Origin: a virus
Virus record (IMG/VR): IMGVR_UViG_3300031977_000216
Location: 1-21,386 of that record
Direction: 5' to 3' (one strand)
DNA: 21,386 bases
The notes under the pieces are model-generated. The model had not been told where the DNA came from. It saw only the letters and a list, made by a program, of their open reading frames with translations, and did no database searches. How positions within the stretch are numbered: position 1 is the first letter of the stretch; each line of letters opens with the position of its first letter. Shown piece by piece: positions 9,697 to 19,027 of this stretch. The position numbers and the translations under genes are program-made.

Positions 9697-10082
9697 TGGC
9701 TGACACAGTAACATCACAGACTATAGCAGACGTTGCTGGTAGTAAGACGGTGATGAAGTTCACCAATAAGTCAGATGGTACTGGTGAGAGTTTAGTAGAG
9801 AAAATGACAAGTGCGTCTTTGAACCACTTGTCAACCTCTACCAAGATTGCGAGGGTGATATATTCAATCAACACTACTGACCCCAAAGGGGCGGTGGAGA
9901 TACTGTTTGAAGGTGATACCAACGCAACGGCACTCTTCCTAGGTGGTTCTGGCACGATAGACTTACAAACACCAGCGATACAGATAGCCAATAATGCGAC
10001 AACACCAACAGGAGATATTTTGTTCTCCACTCACAATTTTGTGAACGGTGATAGTTATTCCGTCGTTTTAGAGGTCAGATAA
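9696..10082 (+). CDS. Beta-rich protein of unknown function, second of the tandem pair
   Basis: 128 aa, start ATG 9696 overlapping the stop of its paralogue. It opens MADTVTSQTIADVAGSKTVM and ends NFVNGDSYSVVLEVR. The matching landmarks with the first copy are in the same order and at similar spacing (Val-Met-Lys-Phe near residue 20, Leu-Phe-Glu-Gly near 71, Gly-Gly-Ser-Gly near 82, Thr-Gly-Asp-Ile near 107, Leu-Glu-Val near the end). The two are therefore a diverged duplication or a heteromeric pair. It shows no signal peptide or transmembrane segment. A late promoter starts at the base after its stop. Confidence 0.7.
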   Translation: MADTVTSQTIADVAGSKTVMKFTNKSDGTGESLVEKMTSASLNHLSTSTKIARVIYSINTTDPKGAVEILFEGDTNATALFLGGSGTIDLQTPAIQIANNATTPTGDILFSTHNFVNGDSYSVVLEVR

Positions 10083-10090
10083 TATAAATA
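10083..10090 (+). promoter_or_regulatory. T4-type late promoter TATAAATA upstream of gp21
   Basis: A perfect TATAAATA directly after the stop of the preceding beta protein. The predicted start near 10096 gives a leader of about 19 nt. The purine-rich AAAAGGGGAAAA (10095-10106) is the only SD candidate and sits 12 bases from the gp21 ATG, longer than usual. Confidence 0.72.
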
Positions 10091-10114
10091 GAACAAAAGG
10101 GGAAAATACGCACC

Positions 10115-10771
10115 ATGAAACTAATTAGAGAAGAAATCAACGAGGCAGAATACATTGTCGAAGAAGATAATGGTAAGAAGTCTCATAAGATAAAGGGTAT
10201 CTTCATGCAAGCCAACATTAAGAATAGAAATGGCCGTGTATACCCACAAGAAGTATTAGAGAAGGAAGTAGGCAGATATAATAAAGAATTTGTCCAGAGA
10301 AAGAGAGCATTTGGAGAACTAGGGCATCCTGACGGTCCAACTGTAAACCTGGAGAGAGTATCACACTTAATAACTAAGTTAGAGGGTGATAACAAGGGTA
10401 ATTATATAGGCGAAGCGAAGATTACAGACACACCATATGGTAAGATTGTGAAGTCCTTGATAGACGAAGGCGCACAATTAGGAGTTTCTTCCAGAGGCAT
10501 GGGCTCTTTGGAGAATAAGGGTGGCACGAACTATGTAAAAAGTGATTTTTACCTGGCAACTGCCGCAGATATCGTAGCGGATCCATCCGCACCACAAGCA
10601 TTCGTCAATGGCGTAATGGAAGGTAAAGAATGGATCTGGGACAACGGAATCATCAAAGAGCGAGATGTTTCTGAAATACAAGAACAAATTGAGCGTGAGA
10701 CTAGACAACGTAAGGCTAGGGCAGAGGCGAATGCCTTTGAGAGTTTTATGAACAAATTAACAAAAAGATAA
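10115..10771 (+). CDS. 21: Prohead core protease gp21
   Basis: Serine protease of the prohead core; it removes the scaffold and trims head proteins before packaging. The 218-aa product (T4 about 212) has the family's histidine motif ELGHPDGPTVNLERVSH (His71) and the serine motif GVSSRGMGS (Ser125/Ser126). A third conserved stretch, ADIVADPSAPQAFV, follows at about 150-163. The N-terminal residues 26-45 (IKGIFMQANIKNRNGRVYPQ) form the first strands. The C-terminal 40 residues are a charged helix, which in T4 gp21 is removed on activation (established for T4, inferred here). It has its own late promoter and precedes the gp22/gp23 genes it acts on. Confidence 0.95.
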   Translation: MKLIREEINEAEYIVEEDNGKKSHKIKGIFMQANIKNRNGRVYPQEVLEKEVGRYNKEFVQRKRAFGELGHPDGPTVNLERVSHLITKLEGDNKGNYIGEAKITDTPYGKIVKSLIDEGAQLGVSSRGMGSLENKGGTNYVKSDFYLATAADIVADPSAPQAFVNGVMEGKEWIWDNGIIKERDVSEIQEQIERETRQRKARAEANAFESFMNKLTKR

Positions 10772-13457: not shown

Positions 13458-14033
13458 ATGTTTTCAATACCTTTATTTCATTACACAATCGACAACTGGC
13501 CAGAGGCCAGAAAAAAACTCATCAACGTAATGGACACCCAGAAGTTTGAGAATGCCTACGATGTGAGTAACGTCTCTACATCATATGGTGTACAGTTCAA
13601 GGACGCTGACCTAGAGTTAAAACAAATATTACAACCCACAGTAGACGAGTTTATCAAGGAATCTGAGATACAGAATCCTATGATTGCTGACATGTGGTTT
13701 CAAAAGTACAAAGAACAACAATTTCACGCACCACATAACCATGGCCCCTATGGGTGGTCTAGTGTGTTGTATATTAAATATGACCCTGCGGTACATAAAG
13801 CGACAAGATTTATCGCACCATTCCCTGACGTCCAAGGTAGGACGATAAACTACTCACCACAAGATGTGGTAAAAGAAGGGTCTTGGATATGGTTCCCTGC
13901 TTTCATCAATCACTATACGACACCAAATAAGACAGACGAGGAACGTATCATAATGTCCTGTAACATGGTGGATGTGGTATCTTATTTGACATGGGAAGAT
14001 GAAGAGGCGAAAGATAAGAGACCGCAAGCATAA
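13458..14033 (+). CDS. Putative 2-oxoglutarate/Fe(II)-dependent oxygenase
   Basis: 191 aa from ATG 13458, chosen because TAGGAG (13445-13450) lies seven bases upstream; the open frame continues 16 codons further up, into the gp23 terminator. It has the double-stranded beta-helix signature of a viral 2OG-Fe(II) oxygenase family. Metal ligands are His93 and His95 in HAPHNHG and a distal His152 in GSWIWFPAFINHYT. Arg163 and Asn169 in ERIIMSCNM are the usual co-substrate binding end. Such proteins are frequent in marine T4-like phages; substrates are mostly unknown (protein, nucleic acid or small molecule). No promoter of its own is clear between it and the terminator, so it may depend on readthrough. 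Confidence 0.75.
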   Translation: MFSIPLFHYTIDNWPEARKKLINVMDTQKFENAYDVSNVSTSYGVQFKDADLELKQILQPTVDEFIKESEIQNPMIADMWFQKYKEQQFHAPHNHGPYGWSSVLYIKYDPAVHKATRFIAPFPDVQGRTINYSPQDVVKEGSWIWFPAFINHYTTPNKTDEERIIMSCNMVDVVSYLTWEDEEAKDKRPQA

Positions 14034-14036
14034 ATA
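14029..14036 (+). promoter_or_regulatory. Late promoter variant CATAAATA abutting the next start codon
   Basis: CATAAATA fits NATAAATA and overlaps the stop codon of the oxygenase gene. With the motif at -13 to -6, position +1 falls on the A of the ATG at 14042, so a transcript from it would have no leader. No SD is present between motif and ATG. Confidence 0.5.
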
Positions 14037-14041
14037 GTAGT

Positions 14042-14632
14042 ATGACAGAAGCAAGTTTAGCCTCAAAACAACCCAATAATCTGGACTATGCGGATCCTAC
14101 CAAGTTTAGGTTCCAATGTGTTAAGATTCCTAAGGTGGAGTATAATACTATACAGGCCAACATACCGGGTGTATCTCTAACAGAGTTGACACAACCAACG
14201 AGATTACAACAATTGAAGATACCTGGTAATGATTTGACCTTCGAAGATTTGACGATAACGTTTATCGTTGATGAAAATTTAGAGACATATCAACAGATAC
14301 ACGATTGGATGGCAGGGTTGGCACAGGTGGATAGTGACGAGAAGTATAGAGCATTAGTTACTGATGGTGGTGATAGAATGCCATTATCAACTCAAACATC
14401 TTCCACAGATGCGGGCAGACCAACTAAGATGACACCAGACGGTGCGATATTCTCAGATGGTAAGTTGATTGTCCTGTCGAGTAGGAATATCCCTGTAATG
14501 GAGATAAACTACCAAGATATATATCCTAAAGCATTGAGTGCCTTAGATTATAACCAAAACCTAACTGACGTTGAATACCTAACCGCGAGTGTAACTTTTG
14601 GATATAAAATCCATACTTACACCACATTATAA
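14042..14632 (+). CDS. Tail-tube-fold protein (gp19/gp54-like)
   Basis: 196 aa. Residues about 20-95 read as the T4 tube fold (DPTKFRFQCVKIPKVEYNTI; IPGNDLTFEDLTITFIVDEN; TYQQIHDWMAGLA). The C-terminus closes with IYPKALSALDYNQNLTDVEY and TASVTFGYKIHTY, the paired strands typical of gp19 and of the baseplate tube initiator gp54. The same pattern is visible in gp19 of this window (MAGDRTFQTWTTTIINDTDF; FPTIIGQVDLNMDQ). It is therefore a diverged tube homologue. It could form the tube's first ring or its end; in marine T4-like phages the gene after gp23 is often labelled gp3. Fold assignment is fairly secure; the exact role is not. Confidence 0.7.
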   Translation: MTEASLASKQPNNLDYADPTKFRFQCVKIPKVEYNTIQANIPGVSLTELTQPTRLQQLKIPGNDLTFEDLTITFIVDENLETYQQIHDWMAGLAQVDSDEKYRALVTDGGDRMPLSTQTSSTDAGRPTKMTPDGAIFSDGKLIVLSSRNIPVMEINYQDIYPKALSALDYNQNLTDVEYLTASVTFGYKIHTYTTL

Positions 14633-17880: not shown

Positions 17881-18327
17881 ATGGATAAAAAAGAAACAAC
17901 AGTTAGAGTACCAGTCCCTAGACTTCTAAAACTTACATCTGGAGAACAGATTATCGCTGGCATGTATGTTACAGAGGGTAGTGACTTCATCAGATTATCA
18001 GAACCCTACAAGATAGACCTATATAATTCTGAGATAGAAGAAGAGGCTTACTATGTTGAGGAACGTATGGCACTCAGACCCTGGGTGTTCCAATCTACAG
18101 ACAAAATCTTTAGTGTCCATAAGAACCACATAATGACGTTAGCCGTGCCTAATGATAACCTAAAAGATTACTATAATAACGTGAGGATAAACTATAAGAA
18201 AAACTTGGAACCTATACTCGAAAAGAGAAAGAGAGAAGATTCCATGAATAAGATGTTAGACAGAATGAATGATGATGACTACTTTGAGACTTTAGAGTAT
18301 CTCAAAGGTAATCGAAAGAAGCACTAA
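17881..18327 (+). CDS. Sm-like (LSm/Hfq-type) small phage protein
   Basis: 148 aa. Residues about 12-92 have the shape of an Sm fold: RLLKLTSGEQIIAGMYVTEG with the strand-turn-strand and Gly of Sm1, then FIRLSEPYKIDLYN. There is a variable acidic loop (EIEEEAYYVEE), then ALRPWVFQSTDKIFSVHKNH and IMTLAVP, resembling Sm2. After it comes a conserved-looking NDNLKDYYNNV and a basic, Arg/Lys-rich C-terminal helix. Similar proteins are common in marine T4-like phages and are usually left hypothetical. RNA binding is a reasonable inference, not shown. It lies between uvsW and the gp55 promoter; its stop begins the longest gap in the window. Confidence 0.6.
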   Translation: MDKKETTVRVPVPRLLKLTSGEQIIAGMYVTEGSDFIRLSEPYKIDLYNSEIEEEAYYVEERMALRPWVFQSTDKIFSVHKNHIMTLAVPNDNLKDYYNNVRINYKKNLEPILEKRKREDSMNKMLDRMNDDDYFETLEYLKGNRKKH

Positions 18328-18434: not shown

Positions 18435-18463
18435 TTGACTTTCGTACTAAAGTATGATATAAT
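18435..18463 (+). promoter_or_regulatory. Sigma70-type promoter with extended -10, for gp55
   Basis: TTGACT (18435-18440), a 17-base spacer and a perfect TATAAT (18458-18463), with TG one base before the -10 (18455-18456). This is a near-ideal host housekeeping promoter and the only one seen in the window. The expected start is 18470 or 18471, exactly at the second ATG of gp55. The spacer holds a short inverted repeat, ACTTT (18438-18442) and AAAGT (18449-18453), which could be an operator. Confidence 0.85.
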
Positions 18464-18469
18464 ATGCCT

Positions 18470-19027
18470 ATGAATGTAAAATTAAAAAAGAAGAAGACGG
18501 AACATTACGTTGACAATAAGAAGTTCCTAGAAGAGATGAAGAAGTACCATAAGAAGGTTGTATCCGCAAGAAAACGAAACCACAGAGATCCAAAGATATC
18601 TGATTACATTGGTGAGTGTTTCCTGAAGATTGCCAACCACTTATCGTATAGACCAAACTTCATCAACTACACATACAAAGAGGATATGATTAGTGATGGT
18701 ATAGAGAACTGCCTACAGTACGTGGCTAACTTCGACCCAGAGAAATCAAACAATCCTTTTGCCTACTTCACCCAGATAATCTATTACGCTTTTATTCGTA
18801 GAATACAGAAAGAGAAGAAACAGACAACGATAAAACAAAAGTTAATAATGAAGGGTGGACTAGATGAGATAGTCAGACAGGAAGGTGACAACACGGAATA
18901 CCAGAATGCCTACGCTGACTTTCTAAAGAAGAACATGATATACGAGGAAGATAAACCAAAAGAAGAAACCAAGGCGGTTAAACGTAAGAAGAAAGAACCT
19001 CGTAAGTTAGAATACTTTATGGCATGA
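18470..19027 (+). CDS. 55: Late-transcription sigma factor gp55
   Basis: Phage sigma subunit that lets host RNA polymerase read late NATAAATA promoters. I prefer ATG 18470, giving 185 aa (T4 gp55 about 185). The in-frame ATG 18464 lies between the -10 box and the expected transcription start and adds only two residues. The N-terminus is very basic (MNVKLKKKKTEHYVDNKKFL). Residues about 43-115 correspond to sigma region 2 (ISDYIGECFLKIANHLSYRP; EDMISDGIENCLQYVANFDP; FAYFTQIIYYAFIRRIQKEK). The C-terminal end is Lys-rich and closes LEYFMA, a hydrophobic tip that in T4 gp55 contacts the sliding clamp (known there, inferred here). It overlaps gp47 by four bases (ATGA). Confidence 0.9.
   Translation: MNVKLKKKKTEHYVDNKKFLEEMKKYHKKVVSARKRNHRDPKISDYIGECFLKIANHLSYRPNFINYTYKEDMISDGIENCLQYVANFDPEKSNNPFAYFTQIIYYAFIRRIQKEKKQTTIKQKLIMKGGLDEIVRQEGDNTEYQNAYADFLKKNMIYEEDKPKEETKAVKRKKKEPRKLEYFMA

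Follow-up and report, generated by a model that had tools for sequence, protein, structure and literature searches.

Introduction

Translation of leaderless mRNAs can be initiated by 70S ribosomes, and the AUG at the 5' end of the message matters (PMC8138138, PMC3616915, PMC12340547). Such messages have been analyzed with reporters (PMC8138138) and as a genome-wide set in S. meliloti (PMC3616915). In Deinococcus-Thermus, genes with a −10 element ~6–7 bp ahead of the start codon give rise to leaderless mRNAs (PMC12340547). Leaderless phage messages are mostly cited as single cases, such as λ cI.

We analyzed a 21,386-nucleotide stretch of viral DNA (the window; IMG/VR record IMGVR_UViG_3300031977_000216). 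It comes from a T4-like, Kyanoviridae-type phage and has a GC content of 39.5%; ORFs were called mechanically. The window encodes the late transcription sigma factor gp55, with uvsW upstream and gp47/gp46 downstream, an order that matches HTVC008M and P-SSM2. Like λ cI, this gp55 is a phage regulatory gene with a predicted transcript start at the A of the AUG and no Shine-Dalgarno sequence (SD), but its promoter-ATG layout is conserved in a T4-like branch, at several genes, and with two promoter classes. It also resembles the leaderless genes of Deinococcus-Thermus in that the −10 motif precedes the start codon by ~6–7 bp (6 nt in the window). However, those genes belong to a cellular phylum and have a TACACT-type −10 element, whereas the phage uses a full TTGAC(T/A)-17-TG-TATAAT promoter, and also the late promoter TATAAATA. 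The orthologous late sigma factor of the T4-type phage RB32 is preceded by a MotA-box-like TGCTTTA, a TATAAT, a 29-nt gap, and a GAGGTG SD; in place of this T4-type unit of MotA-type promoter and SD leader, the window gp55 has a consensus −35 hexamer and no SD. The closest isolate, Pelagibacter phage HTVC008M, has the same type of promoter at gp55 (TTGACT-17-TATAAT with TG), but the gap is 28 nt and contains an AAGGA SD.

Our searches for literature on leaderless messages in cyanophages, at gp55, in Pelagibacter, and among phage early genes, and on pelagimyophage transcriptomes, found no prior report and no mapped 5' ends (most subscription papers were outside their scope). Promoters predicted with BPROM have been listed for Melnitz (PMC9004378) and for cyanophages (PMC3037559), with no mention of leaderless starts in the portions covered. 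The principle is known from λ cI, and conserved, clade-wide leaderless use that includes a late sigma factor appears to be unreported in the literature searched.

The gp55 Promoter and Start Codon

The initial annotation placed the transcription start of gp55 on an in-frame ATG, downstream of a host-type promoter with an extended −10 element, and this geometry proved exact on re-examination (Table 1). The A of the ATG is the seventh base past the −10 hexamer, which is the canonical +1, and the codon at the predicted 5' end is AUG rather than GUG or UUG. A further ATG, at 18464, directly follows the −10 hexamer and would fall outside the predicted RNA, as had been proposed. Counted from 18470, the protein has the same length as RB32 gp55 (also 185 aa), in keeping with the T4-like length first noted.

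Table 1. Features of the Window That Relate to the Predicted Leaderless Starts
Feature	Position	Strand	Remarks
Variant late promoter CATAAATA and ATG of the gp3-like gene (14042-14632)	14029..14042	+	ATG 5 nt downstream of the promoter
−35 hexamer TTGACT of the gp55 promoter	18435..18440	+	TTGACT/TTGACA with 17-nt spacing in most relatives
Extended −10 (TGA)	18455..18457	+	TG (18455-18456) retained by nearest relatives, missing from Mosig-like group
−10 hexamer TATAAT	18458..18463	+	17-nt spacer from −35
Six-base spacer ATGCCT, −10 to start codon	18464..18469	+	Contains upstream ATG predicted to lie outside the transcript
Predicted +1 and start codon ATG (putative leaderless mRNA)	18470..18472	+	Position 7 after −10; geometry conserved
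gp55, late transcription sigma factor, 185 aa	18470..19027	+	PHROG 234, E 7.9e-64; HTVC008M gp55 79% identical

The gp55 start also lacks an SD. The duplex with CACCUCCU at 18470 has a predicted energy of +0.6 kcal/mol, whereas most other genes of the window show some SD pairing, many of them at −6 to −9 kcal/mol, and we found no SD at any other distance from 18470. The first 29 nt of the gp55 mRNA are predicted to be unpaired. We found no plus-strand terminator between 18327 and 18435, in the 137-nt gap upstream of gp55, and the gene may therefore be present on longer messages as well, ones that start further upstream and read through.

Gap Lengths at gp55 across Relatives

We surveyed 399 gp55 loci, collected in five scans and from named phages, which reduced to 301 non-redundant arrangements. 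Nearly every usable relative has a σ70-like promoter upstream of gp55, and among 80 close relatives, nearly all have one with 17-nt spacing. The distance from the −10 hexamer to the ATG is bimodal: it is 5–10 nt in 81 arrangements (exactly 6 nt in 51 of them) and 20 nt or more in 218, and the two arrangements at 11–19 nt are doubtful cases. The automatic promoter picker was judged wrong or doubtful at L037-L039, L453, L469, L462, and L511, which does not affect the overall picture. The near absence of gaps of 11–19 nt suggests selection against leaders of intermediate length, which would leave no room for an SD and yet exceed what a leaderless start allows. We left the frequency of SDs at short-gap loci out of the evidence, as the scan window excludes an SD there by construction.

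In most close relatives, the ATG either coincides with +1 or follows it by 3 nt, with different intervening bases, and the leaderless reading thus survives comparison across related marine phages, as the initial annotation had proposed. Spacers of 6 nt comprise 36 distinct hexamers of constant length when gp55, gp43, and DUF3310 are pooled. At position 7, all eight 9-nt spacers have A and all eight 7-nt spacers have a pyrimidine, as expected if +1 is either the A of the ATG or the A of one extra triplet.

According to the initial annotation, a conserved SD before gp55 in related phages would count against a leaderless message. SDs are indeed present in some of the nearest sister lineages (AGGAG in L012-L025; AAGGA in HTVC008M and L026-L034), but only with a longer leader (gaps of 23–37 nt), which we interpret as switching from one mode to the other. 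At cyanophage-like loci the gap is 20–42 nt, often without an SD, and at Melnitz-like loci it is mostly ~43–49 nt, with GGAG. In a quick tree of 93 gp55 proteins, a sample picked by similarity to chosen queries, the short-gap rows are confined to one well-supported clade of 31 rows and never occur inside the 62-row cyanophage clade; four changes are needed to account for their distribution.

Two features of long-gap loci were observed separately. Melnitz-like leaders (L514-L558; e.g., L539, L541, L522, and L536) have a small hairpin directly before the SD, the arms of which appear to vary together between sequences (GTTGGA/TCCAAC, GTTGC/GCAAC, GTCGTAA/TTACGAC, TCGC/GCGA), making it a candidate translational operator. 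Many cyanophage-like gp55 genes (L114-L193; e.g., L114, L122, and L131) have overlapping start ATGs, ATGNTATG, the first of which is out of frame.

Host-Type Promoters at Other Genes

Eight contigs of relatives contain 25 promoter-like sites with an ORF ATG 5–10 nt downstream, compared with a mean of 0.67 and a maximum of 4 when 60 pairs of permuted hexamers were used instead. Nine of the sites have a gap of exactly 6 nt, against a permuted mean of 0.1 and maximum of 1. The counts for G001, G002, and G003 are not independent, because the three contigs have orthologues in common. G001 is an 88-kb contig whose gp55 is 99% identical to that of the window. In all three, strong promoters lie 6–8 nt before gp43 (DNA polymerase), a glycosyltransferase-like gene, and the DUF3310 gene that heads the gp45-44-62-regA cluster (the clamp operon). 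The 6-nt gap at gp43 is kept in some 30 loci and is 10–13 nt in the HTVC008M group; at DUF3310, the gap is 6–8 nt in some 60 loci, with many different hexamers. Mosig has a gap of 6 nt at gp33 and 9 nt at gp55.

Short-gap sites were absent from RB32 (0 early and 0 late in 150 kb), and cyanophage S-ShM2 has one early and no late site in 150 kb. We found no enrichment that would indicate a host-wide habit in two Pelagibacter genomes (400 kb each; 2 of 245 sites with a short gap). This result is weak, as these genomes have few strong consensus promoters and Pelagibacter may not be the host of the window.

At gp43 of HTVC008M (97048-97061) and of its relatives L307-L321, the 12-nt gap ATATTATTGTTT places an in-frame TTG exactly at +1, before the ATG. 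Both pelagimyophages encode ribosomal protein S21 (HTVC008M 91228-91431; Mosig 9932-10141, minus strand). S21 is located near the anti-SD region, and a link between the phage protein and SD-independent initiation is possible.

Late Promoters

By T4 numbering, the position 5 nt past a gp55-type late promoter motif is +1. An ATG lies exactly there at 13 of 88 TATAAATA sites (about one in seven), whereas permuted late-motif decoys gave a mean of 0.18 and a maximum of 1. The zone 9–14 nt after late promoters is empty or almost so. Genes preceded by TATAAATA with the ATG at +1 (L085-L087, L674-L676, and L094-L110, from HTVC008M, Mosig, G001, G002, G003, and G008) include gp2, gp3, gp25, and those for a tail fibre, CsgF, and an Sm-like protein. 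We considered a switch between leaderless early and SD-led late messages and rejected it, because late sites place the ATG at +1 as well.

The gp3-like gene at 14042 is likely the second leaderless start of the window, judged by its promoter geometry; its homologues in G003 and G008 have a perfect TATAAATA at the identical 5-nt distance. Separately, the window ORF that precedes gp55 (17881-18327) matches an Sm-like domain, though weakly and below the cutoff, and is annotated as methylamine utilization in relatives; in G002 and G003, the orthologous ATG lies at the +1 of a late promoter.

Discussion

We propose, with a probability of roughly 0.8, that the host σ70 holoenzyme transcribes gp55 from the extended −10 promoter at 18435-18463, that the RNA starts on the A of its AUG, give or take one or two bases, and that ribosomes would bind the 5'-terminal AUG and translate without SD pairing. 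Selection would maintain this layout, one of two stable states, in a branch of marine T4-like phages. In one state, the ATG falls at +1 (or follows one extra AUU/AUA triplet); in the other, the leader measures at least ~15 nt and often includes an SD. The branch would apply the same layout to other operon heads at both host-type early and gp55-type late promoters, and so it appears to use leaderless mRNAs at several of them. Its occurrence at gp43, DUF3310, gp33, and several late genes marks the layout as a habit of the clade rather than a speciality of gp55. HTVC008M and close sister lineages use SD leaders at gp55, and leaderless expression is therefore not indispensable.

The best-surviving alternative, which we consider unlikely, is that the RNA starts 1–4 nt ahead of the ATG, so that the message would carry a very short leader and not be strictly leaderless, while translation would still be SD independent. 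The start site chosen by σ70 varies by a few bases, and several relatives have gaps of 8–10 nt; the transcripts of the latter probably begin with AUU or AUA followed by AUG. In the window, however, position 7 is A and the base before it is T, and the nearest upstream purine, the G of ATGCCT, is only 3 nt past the −10 hexamer, which is too close. More improbable still is that compaction of the genome produced the short gap incidentally, with gp55 translated mainly from mRNA that reads through from the uvsW region and no translational role for the promoter-ATG distance. The genome is compact, and the missing terminator would allow read-through, but compaction predicts short gaps of all lengths, which is not what we see at 11–19 nt or at 9–14 nt after late promoters. 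Furthermore, RB32 and S-ShM2 are also compact T4-like phages and lack the layout, and read-through mRNA would still carry no SD at gp55. Translation from the ATG at 18464, on a transcript that starts further upstream, is very improbable and was rejected: it opens a 187-aa ORF but occurs in only some loci and has no SD, the shared N-terminus MNV starts at 18470, and in L005-L011 an in-frame stop 6–9 nt upstream of the ATG excludes any earlier start.

The leaderless reading of gp55 can be extended, more tentatively and with the odds somewhat against it, to a general strategy. Start codons at the +1 of host σ70 and gp55-dependent promoters might allow key takeover proteins (the late sigma factor, DNA polymerase, and the head of the clamp operon) to bypass SD-dependent initiation and control at the ribosome binding site, such as RegA-type repression, with lineages switching between this layout and SD leaders gene by gene. 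Any gain for the phage might lie in early translation, in avoiding repression of the RegA kind, or in compactness alone. The geometry suggests selection on the layout in T4-like phages of the ocean, in genes that time the infection, and close relatives have ordinary leaders at the same gene. Cultured Mosig and HTVC008M, both of which grow on Pelagibacter HTCC1062, differ in this way at gp55, so that the question is open to a direct test. Methods that call start codons from SD motifs may misplace genes in these phages.

A Minus-Strand Promoter Upstream of gp55

The window also contains a perfect consensus promoter (TTGACA-17-TATAAT) on the minus strand at 18388-18360, which faces away from gp55 and is directed, antisense, into the upstream Sm-like ORF and uvsW, with a short hairpin beside its −10 element. 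Of the close relatives, 66% have a minus-strand promoter scoring at least 10.5 at this position, as do 62% of the Mosig-like loci, compared with 3–7% for plus-strand promoters of that score in the same stretch.
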